NCBI RefSeq assembly: GCF_002742335.1
Contig: NZ_MDGR01000007.1
Coordinates: 2,918,501-2,982,500, forward strand
Reading direction: 5' to 3'
Length of the DNA stretch: 64,000 nt
From: Reichenbachiella sp. 5M10
GTDB lineage: Bacteria; Bacteroidota; Bacteroidia; Cytophagales; Cyclobacteriaceae
Shown: positions 2,888 through 47,179 of the stretch, piece after piece
How positions within the stretch are numbered: position 1 is the stretch's first letter
Layout of the letters: each line of letters opens with the position of its first letter
Translations under genes and position numbers: made by a program
The notes under the pieces: model-generated
What the model was told of the DNA's origin: nothing
What the model saw: only the letters and a program-made list of their open reading frames with translations
The model's database searches: none

Positions 2888-5689
2888 TTAGAAACTGGTG
2901 TAGGTAGACTGATTGCGGCGATCAAGTTTAAGATCCTTGAGCAACTGAGAATTCACCGCGATACGCACATAGTAGGACTGGCGTGGACCAAAAGGCACCC
3001 AGTTGAAACTCAGGTTCCAACAGTGCAAATCACGACTCACGTTGATTCGTGTCACGGTAAACTCCTTCTCCTTCATGTCGTACCCCGAATTGAAGCCTAT
3101 CCGGGTCTTGTCTGTGATATTGAGTGTCCCGTTGAAATTCAGTGTTTGCGTGATGACCGCATCTGCGTACCCTGTCTTACTGTAATTGAACGCATAGTTG
3201 ACATTCAAACTCCAAGGGACATCAAAAGGGACATAAGCATTGGGGTCATAGGAGATGTAGTTGTTGACGTTTCCTGCTTCGAAATTATCGCTATTGAAAG
3301 GATCGTTTTGCGAAAGCGGATTGTTGGCATTGGTATCTTGTGGCGCTTCGTCCTCGGACTTTTTCGCTCCTTTTGGCGTCAGTTTCAAGCCTACCGAGAC
3401 ACTCGTCCTGGAGAGGTTACCGATCCCCTCCCCGTTGTTCCAGGCGAACTTATCGATCCGTCTTTGGTAATATGAATCCCCACTTGACCCGTTCTCTACA
3501 CTATCCAGTACATAGACATAAGGATCGATCGTACCACTGAGGTTGACATACATGGCTCCTTTGAAGAAAGAGGTTCGGGCGTTCCAGTTGATGTTGCTGA
3601 GTTTGAATTCTTCTGCTAAGAAGTTGTAGGAAGAAGACATGGACAGGTTGTCGAATATTTTGATTTTATTGTACTCGGCGATCGAATCGGATTTGGACTT
3701 GACCTTCATCTCGATGTTGTTGTTGAGAGAGAAAGACACCGAAGCACTCTCTCCTGCCGAAGGTCCTCCGTAGGTAAACCCCTCATACTTGGACAATACC
3801 GCTGTATCTCCATCTTCATCAATTTGTACCTCCTGATACACCCCTTTGGATGGGTCCGCATAGTCTGGAGAGTAGCTAAATCCTACGTTGGGAGTCATGA
3901 CATGACGTATGGCTTTGATTTTTTTGCTTCTAAAATTGTACATCCCATAGAGACGTGTCGACATAGATGCGCCACTATTCCACCAGCCTGCCCGAGAAAA
4001 TTGATTGAGCGTATCTACGACTACTCCTCCCTCAGTCGCATCGTACTCGTACTGCAATTCCTTGGGGTACCACACCTCCGTATAGTTGAAACTCGGGCTC
4101 ACCGTGATATACTTGAGCATATTGAAGGAGGTAGAAACAGGGATCTGGTGCTTCATCCCCAGGTTGGATCGGCGCATGAGCTCCTCCATATTGTCCCCGT
4201 TGAACTCGATTTGTTCGCTTGTAGCGGGTGAGGTATTGATGATATAATCCGGAGTAGACAGCCCCTTGTTGGAGATCTCATTTTCCATAGACATTCGATA
4301 CGTGAAGCCCAACTTACCCAATGCCGTATTTTTCAGATTGCCCACATTTTTGAAAGGCTGTATACGCGAAGCATTGAAACTGATCTCTGGCAAGGACAAG
4401 GTAGTCGCTCCCGTGCTGATGTTTTGGCTGTAGCGTGCGTTGGCTGTCAAATTGAAGGGCGTCCCCTTGAAAGTCTTCGAATACGACACGTTCGAATTGA
4501 ACTGCGACGACACACTCTGCACATAGTCATAGCCCACATTGTTGGCATTGGCGCTATAGCTCTGCGTCCCCATCGATACCGAAGCAGAGAAACGGGACGT
4601 ACCGAAAGACTCCGGCCTGTGACTCCAGTTGACCCAAAAATCTTTGGAATACGAGTCATCTTCGAAAGTCGGGCTGACCGTCTTGTTGTAGCGCATACTC
4701 ATGTTGCCCGAGTACTTGTAGCGCATCTTATAATTGGACTGAGTCTGAAGTCCATAACTGCCATTGGTATAAATATCGCCCGTCACTTTCAGATCCATGT
4801 ACTCGTTGATATCAAAGTAATACCCCCCATTTCTCATGAAAAATCCACGGTTTTGATCCTCTCCATAACTCGGAAATATGATCCCCGAAGACTTCTCTCT
4901 TGGAGAAGGAAACATCCCAAACGGAAAGCCTATGGGCGTGGGGATCTCTCCAAAATACAAGTTGAAAGGTCCCGACAGTACCCGATCATTGGGGATGACT
5001 TTGAGCTTTTTGGATTGTATATAATAATGTGGGTGTTCGTGGTTGCAGGTGGTGTATTTGGCATCACGTATAAACATCTCATCCAGTTCGTTCTTTTTGA
5101 CCCGAGCACCGTGCATGTATGCTCCGTCTTGTTCCGTGATGATACCGTTGATGAGAGCTTTCTTGGTTTTGAAATTGTAAACCATGTCGTCGGTCTCGTA
5201 GGAGTCGCCCCCCTCGGTAAACACAGGTTTCCCAACCTTCTTGCCCGCCGAATCCAAGACATAGTTGGCCCGTAGGGTATTCTCCACCCAATCCATCTCG
5301 ATGCGTTCTCCCGTCAAGGCTATGTTGCCATAGTCGATAGACCCGTCACCATAGAGGTACATTTTTTGATTGGTCAAATCAAAGTAAATAGAATCTTTGG
5401 CCTTGTAATTGACAGTTGTCTCTACGTCGTTGCGTGTTTTGCGAGGAGCAAACTTCGAAGAATCTTTTGCAGCAAGGGCACCACTAGAAGACAGCAGTGT
5501 TTGAATAGAATCTGGCAAAAGCGGTATATATTCGGGGTATGATTTCAGCGAATCCAAATACCCATTCTCGATCAGGTGAGTCACCTTTTGCATGGCTTGC
5601 GCCGTATCGAGTTTGTAATTTTGAGCTGCCCCGATATACCCCAGCAAAACAAGAAAAAGACAAAAAAACGGGGCTTTTATATTGGGCAC
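2888..5689 (-). CDS. lptD: LptD-like outer-membrane LPS assembly protein
   Basis: A large outer-membrane protein, 933 residues from the preferred start. After a signal peptide (PFFCLFLVLLGYIGAAQ) comes a periplasmic part with an OstA/LptA-like beta-jellyroll (roughly residues 100-260; repeats such as YKAKDSIYFD, LYGDGSIDYGNIALTGERI, YKFKTKKALING-like strands), then GFPFGMFP and a long series of amphipathic beta-strands to the C-terminus, which ends in an aromatic residue as barrel proteins do. This is the architecture of LptD, which inserts lipopolysaccharide into the outer leaflet. Start choice: an ATG at 5743 would add 18 residues but falls upstream of the predicted transcription start and 25 bases from the divergent amidase gene; GTG at 5689 gives a normal signal peptide and leaves room for promoters. 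Family confidence is high; the start is moderately sure. Confidence 0.85.
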   Translation of the reverse strand: MPNIKAPFFCLFLVLLGYIGAAQNYKLDTAQAMQKVTHLIENGYLDSLKSYPEYIPLLPDSIQTLLSSSGALAAKDSSKFAPRKTRNDVETTVNYKAKDSIYFDLTNQKMYLYGDGSIDYGNIALTGERIEMDWVENTLRANYVLDSAGKKVGKPVFTEGGDSYETDDMVYNFKTKKALINGIITEQDGAYMHGARVKKNELDEMFIRDAKYTTCNHEHPHYYIQSKKLKVIPNDRVLSGPFNLYFGEIPTPIGFPFGMFPSPREKSSGIIFPSYGEDQNRGFFMRNGGYYFDINEYMDLKVTGDIYTNGSYGLQTQSNYKMRYKYSGNMSMRYNKTVSPTFEDDSYSKDFWVNWSHRPESFGTSRFSASVSMGTQSYSANANNVGYDYVQSVSSQFNSNVSYSKTFKGTPFNLTANARYSQNISTGATTLSLPEISFNASRIQPFKNVGNLKNTALGKLGFTYRMSMENEISNKGLSTPDYIINTSPATSEQIEFNGDNMEELMRRSNLGMKHQIPVSTSFNMLKYITVSPSFNYTEVWYPKELQYEYDATEGGVVVDTLNQFSRAGWWNSGASMSTRLYGMYNFRSKKIKAIRHVMTPNVGFSYSPDYADPSKGVYQEVQIDEDGDTAVLSKYEGFTYGGPSAGESASVSFSLNNNIEMKVKSKSDSIAEYNKIKIFDNLSMSSSYNFLAEEFKLSNINWNARTSFFKGAMYVNLSGTIDPYVYVLDSVENGSSGDSYYQRRIDKFAWNNGEGIGNLSRTSVSVGLKLTPKGAKKSEDEAPQDTNANNPLSQNDPFNSDNFEAGNVNNYISYDPNAYVPFDVPWSLNVNYAFNYSKTGYADAVITQTLNFNGTLNITDKTRIGFNSGYDMKEKEFTVTRINVSRDLHCWNLSFNWVPFGPRQSYYVRIAVNSQLLKDLKLDRRNQSTYTSF

Positions 5690-37212: not shown

Positions 37213-37458
37213 CTAAGTTTACTGGATTTTTCGTTCGTAGACAATAATGTACGAGCTTCTATTTCTTTCGAAGACCTGTCGCATGACTTTTGCTGCAAGA
37301 ATATTTGCTCTACTCCAAGACCTATGCGCCATACGCCAAAGGATAGAACGAAGAATATAACATCTGCTCAGAATGTTCCTCTTCTCGCCACCTTTCAGAA
37401 ACTATCTCATTATTTTGAGCTATACTTACCCTCTAACTACAATTGACAACCAAGTACA

Positions 37459-38073
37459 ATGAAACACCTTTTTAGCGCCCTTCTCTTCCTTTTCGTTTTT
37501 TCCAATGCCTACTCCCAAAAATACATGGACAAGCTACTTGTAGAATCTTGCGAATGTGTTGACAAGATTGATATTGATTTAGAATTGCAACAGTACAACC
37601 TACAATTGGGTCTGTGTATGCTCGAAGCAGCACAACCCTACCAAAAACAACTCTTGAAAGACTATGAGATCGATATAGCCCACATCGACACGAATGGGCA
37701 AGGTGAAAAACTAGGTCGAATGATTGGCGTAAAGATGGCTTCTGTCTGTCCCAATACCCTCCTCGCTCTCTCCAACAAAATGAACCCTCAACCCTCACCA
37801 GAACCCAGCATCCAAGTAGCGACAGCTACCGTGTCCCAAATAGACCATGACCCGTTCGTCGTATTCACTCTCAAAGACTCCTACGACAAGGAAGTAAAAT
37901 ACTATTGGTTGAGCCCCGTAGAATCAGATCTGGAGCTCATTCAAAACTACCCCGCCCTATTGGACAAAAAGGTCAGCATCCGCTACGAAACCCAAGAGCT
38001 TTTTGATCCCAAGATTGAAGTATACCGTGACTTCAATGTGATTCAAGAGATTAATCTTGCGATAGAGGAATAA
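37459..38073 (+). CDS. Exported Cys-containing protein of unknown function
   Basis: 204 residues with a signal peptide ending NAYSQ. The N-terminal mature half is helical with a CEC motif (residues 31-33), a further Cys in LGLCMLEAAQPY and one in ASVCPNTL, a pattern seen in exported hypothetical proteins of this phylum. The C-terminal half (about 118-204) looks like a beta-barrel OB-type domain (DPFVVFTLKDSYDKEVKYYWLSP, KKVSIRYETQELFDP). Function not recognised. Repeat copy A lies just downstream. Confidence 0.7.
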   Translation: MKHLFSALLFLFVFSNAYSQKYMDKLLVESCECVDKIDIDLELQQYNLQLGLCMLEAAQPYQKQLLKDYEIDIAHIDTNGQGEKLGRMIGVKMASVCPNTLLALSNKMNPQPSPEPSIQVATATVSQIDHDPFVVFTLKDSYDKEVKYYWLSPVESDLELIQNYPALLDKKVSIRYETQELFDPKIEVYRDFNVIQEINLAIEE

Positions 38074-38105
38074 CGAAAACCAGCACAACATCACCTTTGG
38101 CATCA

Positions 38106-38236
38106 GGATACCAGCCCAGCTAAAGGTCTATAGCGGCTGAAATCTATTGCAATGTCCACCGTAGTGCTCGATGCGAACAAGCACTACGGTGGTTGCACTG
38201 CTGTCTATCGACACCAGTGTGACAAGGACGATTGGA
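38106..38236. repeat. Dispersed hairpin repeat, copy A
   Basis: Shares with copy B at about 40027-40150 the segments GGAT-CCAGC, ACCGTAGTGCTCG, GTTGC-CTGC, TATCGA-AC-AGTG and the 15-base GACAAGGACGATTGG, in the same order and orientation. Its core is a perfect 13-bp inverted repeat, CCACCGTAGTGCT (38156-38168) against AGCACTACGGTGG (38180-38192), with an 11-base loop. It sits between the convergent unknown exported gene and the cupin gene. Confidence 0.75.
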
Positions 38237-38249
38237 TTGACAGTCGTAT

Positions 38250-38804
38250 TTACTTCACGAAGGATATGCCGTGATTGCCACAAATCTTGGCTACCGTTTC
38301 AAAATTGGGAGGTCCAGGAGGTAGGTCGGACAATTCCTGAAACATCATCTCAATACCAGCAGGAAAAGCACTCGTGATCATCTTTGCCTTTTCTGTACCG
38401 ACCACTGTCCAGGCATGCGAAATATTCTTAGGGGCGAAAGCTGTGTCTCCTGCCTGTAGCACTGTCGTTTTTCCGTCTACCATGATCTCGATTTGCCCTG
38501 CAATCACCCTAAAAATCTCATCTTCTTTGGTATGAATATGAGGCGGTATGCCGACACCTGGCTCTACATCATCTACCCACTCCACAATTTGGTTGTCAGT
38601 ATCACTACCTACTAGTTTGTGCGTCTGGATATCTCCAAGCACATTGAGCACATCCCCATTTCCATCTCGGATAATTTTGGATTCGAGATCCGCAGTTGAT
38701 CTGTCCTCGCCTAAAATGCTTTTGCTGACGGAAACTCCCGGAATCAAGGCAACCCCAATTCCGATACCTGTTGTTTTGATAAAATTCTTTCTGTCCATTA
38801 TCAT
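38250..38804 (-). CDS. Exported cupin-domain protein
   Basis: 184 residues. The N-terminus MDRKNFIKTTGIGIGVALIPG is a Tat-like signal with RK in place of RR. The cupin domain (about 75-165) has the metal-site pattern PPHIHTKEDEIFRVIAG with two His and one Glu, then GDTAFAPKNISHAW with the second motif His. Cupin_2 proteins of this size include dioxygenases, isomerases and binding proteins, so the reaction is unknown. Start 38804 or 38798 (two ATGs two codons apart). Its upstream neighbour on the same strand is an AraC regulator 194 bases away, and the pair lies between the two copies of the hairpin repeat. Confidence 0.8.
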   Translation of the reverse strand: MIMDRKNFIKTTGIGIGVALIPGVSVSKSILGEDRSTADLESKIIRDGNGDVLNVLGDIQTHKLVGSDTDNQIVEWVDDVEPGVGIPPHIHTKEDEIFRVIAGQIEIMVDGKTTVLQAGDTAFAPKNISHAWTVVGTEKAKMITSAFPAGIEMMFQELSDLPPGPPNFETVAKICGNHGISFVK

Positions 38805-38998
38805 TCTGTTTTATTGATTAAATGTGTGGTTTTCCTCTACAAACAAGCCTTTGCCATAGCGAAATAGGTAGTATCTGACCAAGGCTGATGCCCCAGATGA
38901 TGGCAAAGTCTTGTTTCACCTTGTGGAAACTAAGATAAAGGAGAAGGGTACTTTGAAAGTTGTGATAAAATCGGCAAAACCTTAGAATTTCAGCAAAA

Positions 38999-39808
38999 TC
39001 AGCTTTTTCTAATCTGTGAAGGTGATAATTTGGAGTGCTTTTTTAGATAATAACTGAAATAATCGGGCGAGGAAAACCCAAGATCATAAGACACTTGTTT
39101 GATAGGCTTGTCCGTAAATTTCAATTCGTAACGGGCCGTCATCACCAGCTTTTCGTCAATCAGGCTTTTGGCATTTGTCCCCAATACATCCTTTACGCAT
39201 TCGTTCAGGTACTTGTCCGAAACGTGCAGTTGCTGAGCATACCCACTCACCTCGTGATGCTCCGAATAGTATTTATCAATCCTTTGCTTGAATTTGTAAA
39301 CCAGGGCTGCTTTTTGGTTGTTGTCAGAAATAAACGTCCTGATATTGCACTTTCCGTCACAGTACACAAAAAAGGTGTTCAATAGCGATAGGATAGCCTC
39401 ATCTTTATGCGCCAGATTGGTACTGATTAGTTCATCCAGCATCTCCAAAATCGACTTTACGCGTATTTCGATTCCTGGCGAAAGATTTATTTTAGGGATC
39501 TCGTCCGTAGATTTGAAAATTCGGACTTGTGTAATGTGTAGATTCTTGAACGTAGGGTAGTCCAGTGTGCTTTTTGGCAAGTACAGTAAGTAGCCTGAGG
39601 AAGCCGCCGTTTCTCTTTTATGTATGCTCCAATCAAAATCCGGGGTGAGGAAGAATACCGAATTGGACACGTTGCTGTACTTTGTCTTGTTAATTTCAAT
39701 ATGCTGAACACCTTTGTGAATCCAACACAGCGTATAACAGTCCCTTTCACTTCGGCTTGAAGTTACCTTGTCGAGAATTGGCGATATTTTTATTGCATCT
39801 AGTGGCAT
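38999..39808 (-). CDS. AraC-family transcriptional regulator
   Basis: 269 residues. An N-terminal cupin-like ligand domain (about 1-130) precedes the AraC DNA-binding domain (about 165-268) with two helix-turn-helix units: VSGYAQQLHVSDKYLNECVKDVLG and IKQVSYDLGFSSPDYFSYYLKKHSKLSPSQIRKS. The second unit is the most conserved AraC stretch. It probably controls the adjacent cupin gene. Some stretches are more A+T-rich than nearby genes (first 60 bases of the 3' end are about 28% G+C), which hints at transfer but is not uniform across the gene. Confidence 0.92.
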   Translation of the reverse strand: MPLDAIKISPILDKVTSSRSERDCYTLCWIHKGVQHIEINKTKYSNVSNSVFFLTPDFDWSIHKRETAASSGYLLYLPKSTLDYPTFKNLHITQVRIFKSTDEIPKINLSPGIEIRVKSILEMLDELISTNLAHKDEAILSLLNTFFVYCDGKCNIRTFISDNNQKAALVYKFKQRIDKYYSEHHEVSGYAQQLHVSDKYLNECVKDVLGTNAKSLIDEKLVMTARYELKFTDKPIKQVSYDLGFSSPDYFSYYLKKHSKLSPSQIRKS

Positions 39809-40226
39809 GCTGATGTGACTGTCAACCTAACTTGGCGAGGTGACGCACTTGAATTCACTGTAGCAAAGTAGTAAAATCTGCTGGTGCATCCAAAGCATCA
39901 GATCGGACTGCAAACAGAATGGAAGGCGACAAACACTTTAGAATTTCCGAGACCTTACTATTGAATAGCGCACTACTACTGGATAGGAGCAACGGATGGA
40001 CGCCCTTCTGTATTTCGGATCATAGTGGATGCCAGCAGTAAACAAGGTGAAGGCTGGGTACCGTAGTGCTCGCTCGCAGCGAGGGTTACGGTAGTTGCTC
40101 TGCCATGTATCGATACAAGTGCGTCCTCATCACAGACAAGGACGATTGGGGGCATCTCCTCACTCTATATGTTTCCAGCGAAATATATAGGTCAAAAAAT
40201 GGCATTGATTTGCTGTGATTTTGTCA
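39809..40226. other. Intergenic region with repeat copy B and a possible coding remnant
   Basis: About 420 bases upstream of the AraC gene. It contains repeat copy B. Just before it, an open frame without a start (39965-40066, plus strand) reads HYYWIGATDGRPSVFRIIVD, continues to a stop inside the hairpin, and has a protein-like composition; it may be the broken end of a lost gene. The first 150 bases show nothing recognisable. Confidence 0.45.
40027..40150. repeat. Dispersed hairpin repeat, copy B
   Basis: Homologous to copy A. The stem is kept with different bases: TACCGTA (40059-40065) against TACGGTA (40087-40093), and inside it CTCGCT (40069-40074) against AGCGAG (40078-40083) with a 3-base loop. 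The tail GTTGC...GACAAGGACGATTGG is shared; copy B has about 12 extra bases before GACAAGG. Confidence 0.75.
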
Positions 40227-40227
40227 A

Positions 40228-40449
40228 ATGAACGAAAAAACAACCTTTTTTAACCCTCTATTGAAAAGAGTAGACGGAGAGTACTGTATAGAAACAGAGT
40301 TTACACTTGGTGGCCAACATTTTTCTAAACCAAAATATCTAGGAGAGGGAGGATTTGGGTATTTCAAGATCCCAAACCTGATTGGAAAACGTGTAAAAGT
40401 GCTATGCCACGATGACGAAAAGGTAGAAATACTTAGTATTCTCCCTTAG
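40228..40449 (+). CDS. Small hypothetical protein
   Basis: 73 residues with an ATG start and a balanced composition suggesting a small beta-rich soluble protein (GEYCIETEFTLGGQHFSKP, LGEGGFGYFKIPNLIGKRVKVL). No signal peptide, membrane segment or known motif. It begins about 78 bases after repeat copy B. Codon use looks natural, so it is probably real, but I cannot assign a role. It is convergent with ccsBA. Confidence 0.5.
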   Translation: MNEKTTFFNPLLKRVDGEYCIETEFTLGGQHFSKPKYLGEGGFGYFKIPNLIGKRVKVLCHDDEKVEILSILP

Positions 40450-40567
40450 ATCCCCATCTGTAACGAGGGAGATTGAGGATATTGGTAGTGTACTAGGATA
40501 GACATCTATAGAGACGATGGGCATTTCAAATCCCCAATCAATGCGAACCCTGCACGGTCAGTAGCGA

Positions 40568-43500
40568 TTAGCTCTTCTGCCCGTGCAGCTTCTTATAGTT
40601 CCACTTGGAGAGGATCGCCAATATCACTACGCCAGCCACGATCCAGTACACGAACTGTGGGATCGGTACGGGATCACCTTTGGCGTAGGAATGCAAGCCT
40701 GCAAGGTAGTAGTTGACCCCAAAGGAAGTCATGATGATGCTAAAAAACCCTACTACACTGGCCAAGCTATAGACATAGAGGTCGTTGAGCTTCGGCACGA
40801 GACGCAGGTGGAGTATCGTCGCATACACGATCACCGAGATCAGTGCCCAGGTTTCTTTTGGATCCCAGCCCCAGTATCTCCCCCAGGATTCATTGGCCCA
40901 TACCCCACCGAGGAAGGTTCCTATGGTGAGCATGAACAGTCCGATGGTCATGGACATTTCGCTGATGTAGCTTAGTTCTTTCATGCTGTTGAACAAGCGC
41001 TCATTGCCCTTCTTCTCGACAATCATAAACACCAAAGTGAGTATCCCCAGCAATGCCGACAGTGCCAACGGCGCATAGCTACTCACGATGATCGCCACGT
41101 GGATTTTGAGCCAGTAGGATTTGAGTACAGGCACAAGGTTGGTGATCTCAGGATTGAGCCAATCCAAGAAGGCCACAAACAGCAGCGTCCCAGCAAACAG
41201 AGCCGCTAGCGGTACCACAAAATCAGACTTGCGGTAAAACGAGAAGCCAAACAACATCAGCGCCCAAGACACCAATATGATCATCTCATAGCCGTTGCTC
41301 CAAGGAGGATACTGTGCTGCATACCACCGCAAGATCAGGTTGAAGGTCAAGGCCAAAAAGCCCACAAAAACCACTGCGGTCAAGCCGATCTTGCTCTTGT
41401 CGACCAACAAATTGTTCGGGTAAAAAACCGAAAAGATCGCAACGGCCAATAGTGCGATGCCTGTCAACCAGAAGAAAGAGAACAGGTGGTTGAACAACCT
41501 GAGTTTGTTGTACAGCAATTCTGCCCGCTGGATGTTGCTACTAGGGATCACGGCTGCACCTTTGACATTTTGGAAGGTGCGGATGTAACTTAGCGTCTCG
41601 TCGGCTTGCGTCCAATCTTTGTCTCTACTGGCCTTGAGTACACTCTGGTAGTACATCGGCATGATGCGCTTCACAAATACAGAATCTTCTCCTTTGAACG
41701 CCTCTCCCTCGTATTTGTCATGAAACCAAGTATTCTCTGGATCGCCTTCTAGCGGAAACAATTTTAAATAGTATCCAGTCAACCCTTGAAAGAAAACATT
41801 GAACCGCTCGTCTACATGGATCAGCTCCTTGTCCAGATTGGATCGCTCTGCGGGTTTCTTGCGGTTGGCCTCTTCCACCAAATCCAATAGCAGGTAATTG
41901 CCCCGCTGATCCAACAGGTCAGTGAAAGCCAAATATTTGGTTTCCTCTTTGCCTATCGTTTCGAGGATGGCCGCTCCTTTCTTCGGATCGATCTTGATGA
42001 TGGGCACAGCCTGCCACACCATGGGATTGATTTGCATCATCAAAAACTGCTGATCGCTGTTGAGCTTCATATCAGGCGTCAAAGCAAAAGACGAACGTCC
42101 ATGCACCTTTCTCAAGAATTCGGATGACAAGGTATTGACTGGTTTGATCCGTCCATCCAGATCCTGCACGAGCAACTCCCCAAATTCATTGGCTTTGTCC
42201 GCGGGGATATAACTGGATTTTATATTGTTGAGAAAGGCTTGTTGGTCTTGTTGCCCCGTCTCCTGGGCAGATACGCCACTCCATAGTCCTAGCACCAGTA
42301 CGACTGTAGAAGCGACCTTCTTGGCATTGAGTGCTGACAATTTCTTATTGATGGTTTGAAACCTAGAGTTCTTCCAAAACAGTGTCAAGAACATCCCGAT
42401 CCCCAGCAAAGTGTAACCGAGATAGGTAATGTTCGTCCCCCACCAATCGCTGTTGACCGAGAGCACCGTGCCCAACTCGTCGGTATCGTAGGATGCCTGA
42501 AAGAATCGATACCCACGGTAGTCCAATACATTGTTCATGTAGATGTGATACGGAAACTGCTCCTCTCCATCTATGACCGTGACACGACTCGAATAGGACG
42601 ATGGGCTCACTGATCCAGGGTAGCGTATCAACTCAAAATCATTCAATGCAATCTCAAAGGGTAGCTGTATGGGCTTGGGTCCGTAGGTGATGTCGACATG
42701 ATACGCCCCCAATTGCACGTGTTGTTTGTCGCTGTAGTTGCCGTCAAAAGCAGGCAAAAGCACCTCGTGCTGTATCTCACCATCTGACAGCTTGACAAAC
42801 AGCAGATCATCCAGCGTCTTGGCCTTTTGCTGATCCTCAGACTGACGATAGACCACTGCGCTGTGCTCAAAAATCTCTGGCACTACGAAGGCTACTCCTT
42901 CCCCTTGATACAGCGCGCGCAATTTCAGGTCTTGTAGCGTATCTGCAGGCAACCTACCCCCTGACTGGGTAGCCATGATCATAAACGATAGCTCTACGGG
43001 AGACTGAATCTTCAATTCGCCATCCACTTCATAGATATTGACTGCTCCTGGTACGGGATTGTTGAATGTGACGGGGTAGTTATTGACCAGGATCGACCCG
43101 CCCGACTGCAAGTACAAATTTTCTCTACCGGTGGTGCCAGCAGTCACTACTGTGAGTACGGCACCTCCTGTTTTGGATTCAATTACTTTTTGTTCGGCCT
43201 GCGGCACAAAAGCGGCAGCCTCGACCGTCACCTCTCCATTTTGTCCAAAAGACAAGTCAAAGTCAGGTTGACTGAAAAAGGATAAATTGAGTTGCTGCTC
43301 GTAGGTCTCTTTGTAGTCTCCCTTGGTCACCTCGACCTGAAGGTAGCGCTCCTGCGAAACGATCTCCGAAGCAGCCTGCCCCTCACGGATACTCATGAGC
43401 CCCTCGAAACCATAGTAGCGTGTCACAAATGCTCCAATGAGCGTGACGATGAATGCGACATGAAACAAAAAGATGGGAAACTTCTCTTTGCGTAGGAGCT

Positions 43501-43708
43501 TGTACCGAAAGATGTTTCCCATAAAATTGAGCACCAACAAAAACATGATCACCTCAAACCACCAGGCTTTGTAGATCATCGTTTGGACGGCTTGCGTACC
43601 AAAATCGTTTTCCAAAAATGTACCGTAAGCCATCGCTATGGCAAAAAGCAAAAGAAGTACTGTTGTCAACTGATTAGAAAACAATACTTTAAAAATTCCT
43701 GACTTCAT
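40568..43708 (-). CDS. ccsBA: Fused cytochrome c biogenesis protein CcsBA
   Basis: A 1046-residue fusion of the two System II components. The N-terminal ResB/CcsB part has membrane segments near residues 10-30, 48-66 and 78-98, a large periplasmic domain and a fourth helix near 430. A junction with a signal-like hydrophobic stretch (near 465-485, ending GVSAQ) leads into another periplasmic domain (to about 740) and then the CcsA/ResC part with many helices and the haem-handling WWD segment SWGRYWGWDPKETW (near residue 940). CcsBA carries haem across the membrane and attaches it to CxxCH motifs. It is the last gene of the nrf operon, 15 bases after nrfA, and presumably matures NrfA and NrfH, including the unusual CxxCK site. 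Confidence 0.92.
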   Translation of the reverse strand: MKSGIFKVLFSNQLTTVLLLLFAIAMAYGTFLENDFGTQAVQTMIYKAWWFEVIMFLLVLNFMGNIFRYKLLRKEKFPIFLFHVAFIVTLIGAFVTRYYGFEGLMSIREGQAASEIVSQERYLQVEVTKGDYKETYEQQLNLSFFSQPDFDLSFGQNGEVTVEAAAFVPQAEQKVIESKTGGAVLTVVTAGTTGRENLYLQSGGSILVNNYPVTFNNPVPGAVNIYEVDGELKIQSPVELSFMIMATQSGGRLPADTLQDLKLRALYQGEGVAFVVPEIFEHSAVVYRQSEDQQKAKTLDDLLFVKLSDGEIQHEVLLPAFDGNYSDKQHVQLGAYHVDITYGPKPIQLPFEIALNDFELIRYPGSVSPSSYSSRVTVIDGEEQFPYHIYMNNVLDYRGYRFFQASYDTDELGTVLSVNSDWWGTNITYLGYTLLGIGMFLTLFWKNSRFQTINKKLSALNAKKVASTVVLVLGLWSGVSAQETGQQDQQAFLNNIKSSYIPADKANEFGELLVQDLDGRIKPVNTLSSEFLRKVHGRSSFALTPDMKLNSDQQFLMMQINPMVWQAVPIIKIDPKKGAAILETIGKEETKYLAFTDLLDQRGNYLLLDLVEEANRKKPAERSNLDKELIHVDERFNVFFQGLTGYYLKLFPLEGDPENTWFHDKYEGEAFKGEDSVFVKRIMPMYYQSVLKASRDKDWTQADETLSYIRTFQNVKGAAVIPSSNIQRAELLYNKLRLFNHLFSFFWLTGIALLAVAIFSVFYPNNLLVDKSKIGLTAVVFVGFLALTFNLILRWYAAQYPPWSNGYEMIILVSWALMLFGFSFYRKSDFVVPLAALFAGTLLFVAFLDWLNPEITNLVPVLKSYWLKIHVAIIVSSYAPLALSALLGILTLVFMIVEKKGNERLFNSMKELSYISEMSMTIGLFMLTIGTFLGGVWANESWGRYWGWDPKETWALISVIVYATILHLRLVPKLNDLYVYSLASVVGFFSIIMTSFGVNYYLAGLHSYAKGDPVPIPQFVYWIVAGVVILAILSKWNYKKLHGQKS

Positions 43709-43723
43709 ATGATTTGTATCTCC

Positions 43724-45235
43724 TTACTTCATGGAGACGGCCTTCTTCACCCCCATGCCTTCTTCACGTTTCTTAGCCTCTTCGAGCCACTTAGGTATGA
43801 TATTCTTCTTAAACTCTTCCTTCTCTTTCTCCAAAGCTACACGATCGATTCCCATCAATTGTTGCGCCTTGTCTTTGGTCGTGATGTCTGGGTAAGGCAA
43901 CTCTTCGTTGTACCCCAAACTCGCCAGCAATCTGGCCAGCTTGATCCGACCTTGGCCTGCCACATCCATCGCCGAACTGACCACTCTACTCACCTCCACG
44001 GGAGAGTGAAAAGAAGCCCCATGAGACGCTACCGAATAGTCCCATCTCCACTGCGCATGTCGAATATCCTGCAGGATGTCCACCATATCCGCTTCGGTCG
44101 CGCCCAACTCCCATGCCTTGCCCGCTTCCAAGTGCAAACGAACTAAAATTTTCTCCAACTTCTCCATATTTTCGGCAACCATTTTCTGTCTTGTATAGAC
44201 ATCTGCTACCAAATCCTCTTTGTCTTGACGATGACAGACCTGACAGGAGTTGGTTACGTTGTTGAGTGGAGACTGGATATGGTGGTCTGTGTACTTCTGT
44301 CCACCTTCTGAGGTATATGGCATGTGACAATCCGCACAGGACACCCCGCGCTTAGCATGTATGCCCGTGCTGTATATTTCATACCCTGGATGTTGAGCCT
44401 TGAGCATTGGCGCTTTGCTCACCGCATGCGTCCAGTCACTGAAATTGATCTCATCATAGTAGGCCTCCATCGCCTCCACAGAAGTACCGTCTCTCCATGG
44501 GAACACCAAATAAGGCACGCCTTCTTTGCCCGGAAGGTTCTTGTTGAAATAGTACTCAACATGACACTGCGCACACACCAGAGAGCGCATCTCTTGATGA
44601 CTCGATGCGTTGATATCCTTGCCCATCGCCTCGAACGCCTCGATCAGCGCTGGGCGTGTGATACGAAGACTCATGGTCTCAGGGTTGTGACAGTCGGCAC
44701 ACCCTATAGCATTGACGACTTCCGCCCCCTTATCAGCCCACTTACCACTATAGAACTCGTCTATTCCGATCTCATTCATCAGACGAGGGACGTCTGGGCT
44801 CTTGCAGGTCCAGCAAGTACTCGGCATAGGCCCTGTACCAGGCCCCGTAGGAGCGCCCGTTCTGAGGATGTCACGAATATCATCTACTGCATAGTAGTGC
44901 CCTCGTGGTGCATTGTACTCCTTGGAGAAAGCATAGCCTGCCCACAAGATCACCAATCTCGGATCCTTTTCGAGCATATCAACAGGCTTGCTTCCGCCTT
45001 GGTAACTCTGAAAGGTCGTGTCTTTGGTTTCCAAGAAGGACTGATACTGTCTCGGAAAGTTCTCTCCCCACACTTGATTGCGGGGTTCATTGTCCGCTAT
45101 CTCTACCATGGGTTGGTAGGCGAACTTGGATTCGGTTTTTCTACTGATGATGCTATTGGCTAACAGGCTCAGTAAAAAGGCTGCTACTGCAGTCGCAAAA
45201 AATAAAAATACATGTCTTTTTTTGATAGAGGCCAT
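43724..45235 (-). CDS. nrfA: Ammonia-forming cytochrome c nitrite reductase
   Basis: A 503-residue pentahaem enzyme reducing nitrite to ammonium with six electrons. N-terminal membrane/signal segment (9-31). The catalytic haem site is CWTCK at 141-145 (Lys in place of His); the four other sites are CADCH (179-183), CAQCH (221-225), CADCH (300-304) and CQVCH (331-335). CAQCHVEYYF carries the active-site Tyr and KAQHPGYE the active-site His. All expected ligands are present. Follows nrfH by 15 bases. The product is anchored or docked at the NrfH quinol dehydrogenase. Confidence 0.97.
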   Translation of the reverse strand: MASIKKRHVFLFFATAVAAFLLSLLANSIISRKTESKFAYQPMVEIADNEPRNQVWGENFPRQYQSFLETKDTTFQSYQGGSKPVDMLEKDPRLVILWAGYAFSKEYNAPRGHYYAVDDIRDILRTGAPTGPGTGPMPSTCWTCKSPDVPRLMNEIGIDEFYSGKWADKGAEVVNAIGCADCHNPETMSLRITRPALIEAFEAMGKDINASSHQEMRSLVCAQCHVEYYFNKNLPGKEGVPYLVFPWRDGTSVEAMEAYYDEINFSDWTHAVSKAPMLKAQHPGYEIYSTGIHAKRGVSCADCHMPYTSEGGQKYTDHHIQSPLNNVTNSCQVCHRQDKEDLVADVYTRQKMVAENMEKLEKILVRLHLEAGKAWELGATEADMVDILQDIRHAQWRWDYSVASHGASFHSPVEVSRVVSSAMDVAGQGRIKLARLLASLGYNEELPYPDITTKDKAQQLMGIDRVALEKEKEEFKKNIIPKWLEEAKKREEGMGVKKAVSMK

Positions 45236-45250
45236 GGTCGGGACATTTGG

Positions 45251-45850
45251 TTATTTAGAAGACTTCAATTGTTTTTTGATCCAGTCTGGGACAAACTCCT
45301 TCTGCTGCTGACGAACGGACAACGGTTCAATGAACTGACCAATGGCCGCCAAGCTTTTCACTCTGCCATGAGGAGTCTCTCTGTGACATTCCCAGCAGGC
45401 TCTGCTGGTTCTATTTTCTTCATGATTGTCCACCCAAGATGCCATTTTTGCATCGGTGACTTGATCGATATGGCACCTGATGCAATTGTTTTGCACTACA
45501 TGCTGACTGGGTTCTCGCATGGTGATCGCCTGAGGCTCCATTCGCATCGTATAGATCGAGGCATGGTACAATCCATCCATTGCTTTGAAATAGTACTTGT
45601 TCACCACATTGTTGTGCGGTACATGACAATCATTGCAGACGGTGACACGCTGGTGCGAACTATGATCCCACGTGATGTACTCAGGAGTCATCACGTGACA
45701 ATTGATGCATGCCTTGGGATCGTCAGAGAGGTAGGATACCGCGTTGGACACTCTCAACACATAAAACCCTAAACCAGCCATCAGCCCACACAAGAGTGTA
45801 ACGGGTACGATCCACTGGTCAGGTGGTATTATCTTGTTTAGGAGGTTCAT
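45251..45850 (-). CDS. nrfH: Cytochrome c quinol dehydrogenase NrfH
   Basis: A 199-residue NapC/NirT-family tetrahaem protein: one N-terminal membrane helix (about 14-33), then CINCH (48-52), CNDCH (72-76), CIRCH (123-127) and CWECH (152-156). It takes electrons from the menaquinol pool and passes them to NrfA. The C-terminus extends about 40 residues past the last haem site. Thirteen bases separate it from the upstream porin-like gene, and it precedes nrfA, the standard nrfHA order. Confidence 0.96.
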   Translation of the reverse strand: MNLLNKIIPPDQWIVPVTLLCGLMAGLGFYVLRVSNAVSYLSDDPKACINCHVMTPEYITWDHSSHQRVTVCNDCHVPHNNVVNKYYFKAMDGLYHASIYTMRMEPQAITMREPSQHVVQNNCIRCHIDQVTDAKMASWVDNHEENRTSRACWECHRETPHGRVKSLAAIGQFIEPLSVRQQQKEFVPDWIKKQLKSSK

Positions 45851-45862
45851 GGTACCATTAAG

Positions 45863-47179
45863 TTAATCCTTCTTCGAAGAATTAAAAAGCTGTGGACGAA
45901 AATCTACCATAACCCAAGCCCAGTTGTTGAGTGCCGAAGCTTCACCGGTATACCCCGTCACGACACCTTTGATCTGCTCCATCGACTCTGTAGCAAACAT
46001 CTGAGAATAGCCTAAATTGACAGTCACTGCAGGGTCCAGTTTCCAAGTCATCACTAAATCGATCTCTGTACCAAGATTGCTCGAGTAGGATTGTGACACG
46101 TCATTGACATCCACGATATCTACAGGGCTCAAAAACTGGTGAATATTGGCTTTGAGTGAAGAACTTGCCCCTGTCTTCCACTCTGTCATGATACGAAAAT
46201 CCAACAATCCCGTACTATTGACAGAGCCCTGCATACGATGAGGGTTGCCCACATAGAAATAATCCATGTATCCATAAAACTTGTGGTTAGATCCAAACAA
46301 CGGATTGAATGAATGGTCGTTAGACGATCCATAACTTGTCCCTGACATATAGTCCACCCCCACGTTGATAGGCGTCAAATCCGTAGCATAGATCACATGT
46401 GCAGCCAACATATGTGCGGAATTGTTTTCTCCCACACGGTTCTTTCCTGTTTGCAAATAGGATTCCCCTTCTAGTTTCAATCGGTCGTTTACTTTGTAGT
46501 CCAACAACAAGGCAAAACTCTGCTGAGCGACACCACTGGAATCGATCACATTTTGGTACCCGTTGTTCAATGCCATGGCATTGACAACTAGCTTATCCAA
46601 CTTTTTGGTCAACCATACATACTCCATGTGCTTGTAGTTTACCACACCGTCATAAAAAGTCCCTTGTACCAGCGTAGGCTCATAGGCATTTTGATTAAAA
46701 GCCGCTCCCACATCGATTTTCCACCCCGTCGCTTGATTCTCATAGATCAACAACAAAGCATCGTGACTCCTACCCTGTGGCTGCCAGTTCGAGCTACCAA
46801 AGAAACGTTCGTTGTGATAACGAATAATCTGTCGACCTGCTTTGAAGGATAGTTTATCTGTAAAGAAATATTGCCCCCAAGCCTCTGAAAAATGTAACGT
46901 ATTGTTCTCGTCGGTTTTGTAGGGTTGATTGGTTGACCCCCACATACGTACATCCTGTGCTGTCACTTTGATCTTGTATTTTTCTTGAGTGAGCCCTACA
47001 GACAGTCGTGTTCTTTGCTCTGTATAGAAAGCAGGCCCCTCATCAGGAGCATTGAGTTCTTTGAATCCGTTTCGCAATTCGGACCGAGGTCTGATTTGAG
47101 CATCTATAACAAATTGTGCGTAAAGGTTAGAAGTGAAAGTCATGGCCAGCACCACGAGACAAATTTTGGAATAATTCAT
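45863..47179 (-). CDS. Alginate-export-type outer-membrane beta-barrel protein
   Basis: A 438-residue outer-membrane protein: signal peptide ending NLYAQ, then QIRPRSELRNGF, YTEQRTRLSVGL and KVTAQDVRMWG, a run of amphipathic beta-strands and an aromatic ending typical of 16-18-strand porins; this is the alginate_exp domain pattern. In many Bacteroidota such proteins accompany periplasmic respiratory enzymes and are thought to admit small anions. As the first gene of the nrfHA-ccsBA operon it is a good candidate for nitrite or nitrate entry (inference). ATG 47179 is preferred to TTG 47188. Confidence 0.8.
   Translation of the reverse strand: MNYSKICLVVLAMTFTSNLYAQFVIDAQIRPRSELRNGFKELNAPDEGPAFYTEQRTRLSVGLTQEKYKIKVTAQDVRMWGSTNQPYKTDENNTLHFSEAWGQYFFTDKLSFKAGRQIIRYHNERFFGSSNWQPQGRSHDALLLIYENQATGWKIDVGAAFNQNAYEPTLVQGTFYDGVVNYKHMEYVWLTKKLDKLVVNAMALNNGYQNVIDSSGVAQQSFALLLDYKVNDRLKLEGESYLQTGKNRVGENNSAHMLAAHVIYATDLTPINVGVDYMSGTSYGSSNDHSFNPLFGSNHKFYGYMDYFYVGNPHRMQGSVNSTGLLDFRIMTEWKTGASSSLKANIHQFLSPVDIVDVNDVSQSYSSNLGTEIDLVMTWKLDPAVTVNLGYSQMFATESMEQIKGVVTGYTGEASALNNWAWVMVDFRPQLFNSSKKD

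Follow-up and report, generated by a model that had tools for sequence, protein, structure and literature searches.

REP elements tagged by GTAG or CGTC have been described as short imperfect palindromes of intergenic regions that are present in multiple copies and frequently follow closely on the end of a gene (PMC3733652). According to the same article, CGTC repeats occur in Bacteroidetes, head-to-tail CGTC dimers are negligible, and REPs or terminal inverted repeats lie on either side of RAYT genes. The hairpin repeat analysed here is like the elements described there in its imperfect palindromes and frequent position just past a gene end, and may share their intergenic location and multiple copies. 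It differs from them in having few copies per genome and longer composite units (~95 to 420 bp) and, unlike the CGTC repeats, its neighbouring copies are mostly direct.

A second likeness is to the attC sites and gene cassettes of integrons, where hairpin sites in direct orientation enclose one gene or a small operon; attC sites carry the end motifs RYYYAAC and GTTRRRY. Routes of gene gain and loss are less well mapped in Bacteroidota than in Proteobacteria. Direct repeats bracketing accessory genes would be a general and testable route in Bacteroidota, and if only passive they would still be useful marks of plastic chromosomal sites. None of the papers listed in a literature search deals with such repeats around the genes of this group.

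The window, a 64,000-nucleotide stretch of the genome of Reichenbachiella sp. 5M10 (G000; other G numbers denote genomes of relatives), contains two copies of the repeat, A (38106-38236) and B (40027-40150), both on the minus strand and both ending in GACGATTGG. They bracket a gene for a cupin-domain protein of 184 residues (38250-38804, minus strand; Pfam Cupin_2, E 5.8e-17) and a gene for an AraC-type regulator of 269 residues (38999-39808, minus strand; Pfam HTH_18, E 2e-17), and A follows the cupin stop codon at a distance of 14 bp. The original prediction, that the copies share segments in the same order and orientation and flank the two genes like direct repeats, agrees with the coordinates and the alignment. 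In A and B 62 nucleotides are common at 74% identity (38158-38219 and 40060-40121), and the exact 15-mer GACAAGGACGATTGG is found in the same order and orientation relative to this segment (38221-38235 and 40135-40149). The local alignment score of 49 was reached by none of 1000 shuffles, where the maximum was 28, and none of the 17 direct-repeat families in the window (seed 13, minimum length 18) is longer than A/B.

The first hairpin of A has perfect 13-bp arms (38156-38168 and 38180-38192), and that of B is situated at 40060-40092. The second hairpin of B (approximately 40122-40148) has the loop CATCACAGACA, and A has lost one arm of it, so the two copies are not equivalent. None of 200 shuffles folds as well as the A region; the fold of the B region is less striking, and 9 of 200 shuffles fold equally well. 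A covariance model built from nine copies to represent the region of the second hairpin matches A at 38180-38236 with 24.1 bits and B at 40082-40150 with 57.8 bits. Judged from their sequences, A and B descend from one REP-like hairpin repeat and are directly oriented copies of it, now diverged. Because A is without half of its second hairpin and the copies are 74% alike, any event at this site is judged to be old, and with A decayed and A and B differing by 26%, nothing appears to point to current activity. Close kinship of A and B, which might point to a single local event, does not stand out: each of them aligns about equally well with a third copy, in G002 (A-B 34.5, A-G002 32.0, B-G002 32.5).

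Half of a RAYT-type REP with the motif AGAAGGGCGTC is located at 39999-40030 (minus strand), where a copy in G002 agrees with it at 28 of 32 bases (0 of 500 shuffles). It is overlapped by the "protein-like remnant" of the original prediction (39965-40066), which is probably a chance frame that runs through the REP. The palindrome GGTCKTAGCRTCYGCTAAGACC, half of which lies inside B, is present in 7 of 8 genus genomes (a reversed control pattern in none) and, as in REPtrons, stands on both sides of Y1-transposase genes, at 3 of 19 loci. RAYT genes were found in all 8 genus genomes searched. Unlike the REPs of REPtrons, the hairpins shared by A and B, which differ in sequence from this palindrome, were not found as RAYT ends: they flank none of the 19 Y1_Tnp loci scanned, and one G001 copy lies ~1.2 kb from the domain. 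A itself was rejected as a RAYT REP; its comparison with the G002 copy was not significant (228 of 500 shuffles), and that with the G001 copy gave 4 of 500.

To judge from the model matches, the A/B repeat recurs across the bacterial family, mostly between genes. Matches occur in 23 of 196 family genomes and 14 of 84 genera (E<=0.01), and, with the threshold at E<=1, in 6 of the 8 genus genomes, where several of the matches are weak. This bears out the suggestion in the original prediction that A and B belong to a family-wide repeat. The proposed search of the own genome for further copies returned only A and B with blastn; the covariance model gave four matches at E<=1, two of them A and B and the other two the opposite strands of a single palindromic copy at 653 kb. 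Relatives also contain the second hairpin, and G001 has 17 matches (E<=1). Most of the copies examined lie outside reading frames, with one overlapping a gene end by 20 bp.

Pairing within the hairpin is well kept: standard pairs fill 92% of pair cells, a share reached by 0 of 500 shuffles. Among 81 local matches (68 distinct), in an alignment that was fitted to the model and leans towards it, 7 of 10 pairs have changes in both partners, more than in any of 500 shuffles or in the slid controls. The repeat is a conserved palindrome able to form a stem-loop, as is a REP element. CGTC opens the second hairpin, yet by eye it pairs with GACG in several copies. Rfam at gathering score, applied to the window and eight array loci (128,008 bases), has no family that matches the repeats; away from them it found one SAM riboswitch and three tRNAs. 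The repeat was also rejected as a single known RNA family after a permissive scan of 37400-41000, which gave one sub-threshold IS009 match, inside the cupin gene. Viral contigs contain no match to the exact 22-base consensus of the repeat, which is a strict test, and in one Persicobacter plasmid 79 bases match part of a repeat unit of G001.

The AraC-cupin pair is itself an ordinary operon with a patchy spread. AraC is present in 6 of 196 family genomes including its own (E<=1e-60), and the cupin gene stands beside it in all five other carriers. Seven congeners have no AraC ortholog, and across the genus no match exceeds 34% identity besides that of the window. Among named genomes there are 18 AraC loci, 12 of them with a cupin gene near, and the best relative is a protein of Zobellia uliginosa (78% identical). 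Such a scattered distribution suggests lateral transfer, by which this lineage most likely gained AraC and the pair as a whole. Plasmids gave no DNA match to the gene block, and their AraC matches are all below 60% identity. The A+T richness attributed to AraC in the original prediction is mild (41.4% G+C against 45.5% for the window), and ~10% of 810-bp stretches are as low.

The same prediction had named relatives that keep the genes without the repeats as evidence against repeat-mediated insertion. The repeat was found in none of 22 other AraC carriers (E<=0.01) in the limited DNA scanned around them, ~1.5 kb per side for five of them, and 17 of the 22 have an adjoining cupin gene. The gene pair therefore does not depend on the repeat. 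Together with the family-wide distribution of the repeat, this argues that A, B and the genes between them are not a self-contained cassette with its own ends. Insertion mediated by the repeat survives in part, through a one-copy site in G001 and through gene gains or rearrangements beside the repeat elsewhere.

One possible explanation, which we hold tentatively, is that REP-like repeats act as recombination seams. Incoming DNA that carries genes and a repeat would recombine with a resident repeat copy, and the gain would have been caused by homologous recombination at the repeats rather than by a dedicated enzyme; direct copies would also allow later gene loss. This model would explain why sites with one copy and no gene are found beside sites with at least two copies and genes between them. 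For this very site, a role of the repeat in the gain is plausible.

The seam model is supported by the matching place in G001, which contains a homologue of the left flanking gene (204 residues, window 37459-38073, plus strand; 67% amino acid identity), one repeat copy and then ccsA, with no cupin or AraC gene. An empty site with one repeat left had been envisaged in the original prediction. The ccsA product, a ResB/CcsA cytochrome c assembly protein of 1046 residues (window 40568-43708, minus strand), is 99% identical in G001. In the window, a degenerate third copy, C (40425-40484, minus strand, limits approximate), is mostly erased and is detected weakly by the model (E 0.17); over its last 22 bases (40463-40484) it agrees without a difference with the right end of the one G001 copy. 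Rightward from this end, identity is 91-100% over most of ~5.5 kb (window 40486-46000), with one dip to 75%, and then 61-84%; other aligned blocks have 65-87%. The near-identical tract begins inside the repeat, which also supports a seam. A recent exchange between species or lineages, with one edge at the repeat, is the probable origin of the ccsA tract, so G001 is not to be taken as an overall close relative. Its one-copy site may be a loss, the ancestral state or a product of the ccsA exchange. The stretches compared at the ccsA site of the six remaining congeners show no part of the cupin-AraC block.

A small orphan reading frame of 73 residues lies between B and C (40228-40449, plus strand); it has no Pfam match and, among the loci compared, no tblastn match outside its own genome. 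In G001, ~290 bp of short tandem-like repeats (L072:6727-7017) that are absent from the window separate the repeat copy from ccsA, and similar units are found in L204 at 5175-5349. The largest difference beside the site is at window 914-37483, where 36.5 kb stands against ~1.6 kb in G001.

Including the window and G001, six site comparisons were lined up. Gene content or gene order differs beside the repeat in five of them, and the repeat alone differs in one. The copy at 653 kb in G000 is single, whereas on contig 15 of G001 a gene for 142 residues stands between two copies. On contig 17 of G001, a block of MarR, unnamed and glyoxalase genes is bracketed by two copies identical over ~95 bp. 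This block matched only one of seven other genomes, G004, where it is elsewhere, and its left flank continues differently in G000 and G002. From ~150 bp past the second copy, L205:8421-12004 is 99% identical to a distant part of G000 (2584834-2588417). Compared with G110, G145 has a 1.4-kb insertion that includes a 225-residue reading frame; it shows a 29-bp direct repeat and has the hairpin at one of its edges. The 653-kb, contig 17 and G145 sites each support recombination at the repeats. In G155 and G070 an amine oxidase gene and its neighbour are in swapped order, and repeats are present in G155 and absent from the G070 stretch.

The distribution of copies supports the seam model as well. 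In G001 there are 5 neighbour pairs within 2 kb where 0.1 is expected (16 of the 17 matches used), and at most 2 were seen in 20,000 random draws. Neighbour pairs within 6 kb, counted by hand among family matches at E<=0.01, are direct in 24 of 26 cases. The genes between copies encode DUF4386, MarR, glyoxalase, bestrophin and unnamed proteins and, in G155, small frames and an amine oxidase.

Several observations count against seams. When weaker local copies are included, 39 of 49 neighbour pairs are direct and 10 opposed, and direct pairs number 25 of 35 if a tandem array of 15 units is left out; copies within one genome are not independent in these counts. Of 11 genomes with neighbour pairs, seven have direct pairs only and four show opposed ones. 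Many copies are single and bracket no gene. The G145 insertion has one copy rather than two, and the empty G110 site opposite it has no hairpin match. About 2 kb from this insertion, a copy in G110 is absent from G145 with, by eye, no evident gene difference. The 36.5-kb difference beside the site contains no match to the repeat model. The 74% identity of A and B and the arm missing from A speak against a recent event.

To the seam model we give the same weight as to the reading that A and B are passive, that is, ordinary mobile hairpin repeats that settle just past genes, accumulate in plastic intergenic regions into which foreign genes come as well, and took no part in the gain. Such repeats would account for the AraC carriers without a repeat (17 of the 22 with an adjoining cupin gene), for the joining of B to half of a RAYT-type REP, for the repeat-only difference between G110 and G145 and for the repeat-free 36.5-kb difference. 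A gene end lies at most 60 bp before the copy in 18 of 58 copies, the gene running the same way as the copy in 13 cases and the opposite way in 5, a placement that also fits ordinary repeats or terminators. Passive settling is at odds with clustering in G001 far above chance and with accessory genes bracketed by copies at several sites in several genera.

It is unlikely that genes and a hairpin site are moved together by an enzyme, either an integron-like site-specific recombinase or a RAYT/HUH transposase whose substrates are single-stranded hairpins. Such a system would fit the arrays in which direct copies enclose genes, the sharp limits of the repeat when copies are aligned, the compensatory changes that conserve the hairpin and the RAYT genes of all 8 genus genomes searched. 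Unlike in attC sites, RYYYAAC and GTTRRRY are both present in 0 of 10 copies, the limits of some copies having been set by eye. Unlike in integron arrays, none of 30 Pfam-scanned proteins in or beside the arrays matches an integrase, with one IS110 transposase among them, and the 22 other AraC carriers indicate that genes also travel without the site. Apart from the G001 copy ~1.2 kb off, the second hairpin is close to none of the 19 Y1-transposase loci. Slightly more doubtful still is a cassette-like gene exchange on hairpin repeats throughout the family, in which genes in small chromosomal arrays would be gained and lost as gene-plus-repeat units without an integron integrase, via a putative recombinase or RAYT-type enzyme.

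A composite mobile element, a single transposable unit that brought cupin and AraC and of which A and B would be the ends, was graded as already disfavoured and is very improbable: direct copies do flank exactly the gene pair, but they differ by 26% and a lost arm, the frames between them match only cupin and AraC in Pfam, with no transposase gene, unlike in a composite transposon, and the 22 other carriers have no repeat in the DNA scanned.

Minor observations were made at the other repeat loci. The tandem array consists of fifteen hairpin units with a spacing of 174-182 bp and no gene between them, and it is situated at L209:8775-11370 in G070. A different repeat of ~155 bp occurs at L205:6456-6610, with further copies 88-96% identical in G000 and G001. 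The IS110-type transposase gene (L207:15658-16626) lies ~2.5 kb beyond the G155 repeat cluster. In three of eight loci scanned, tRNA genes are situated within ~1 kb of repeat clusters (L213:5943-6015, L208:9006-9079 and L212:5672-5745).
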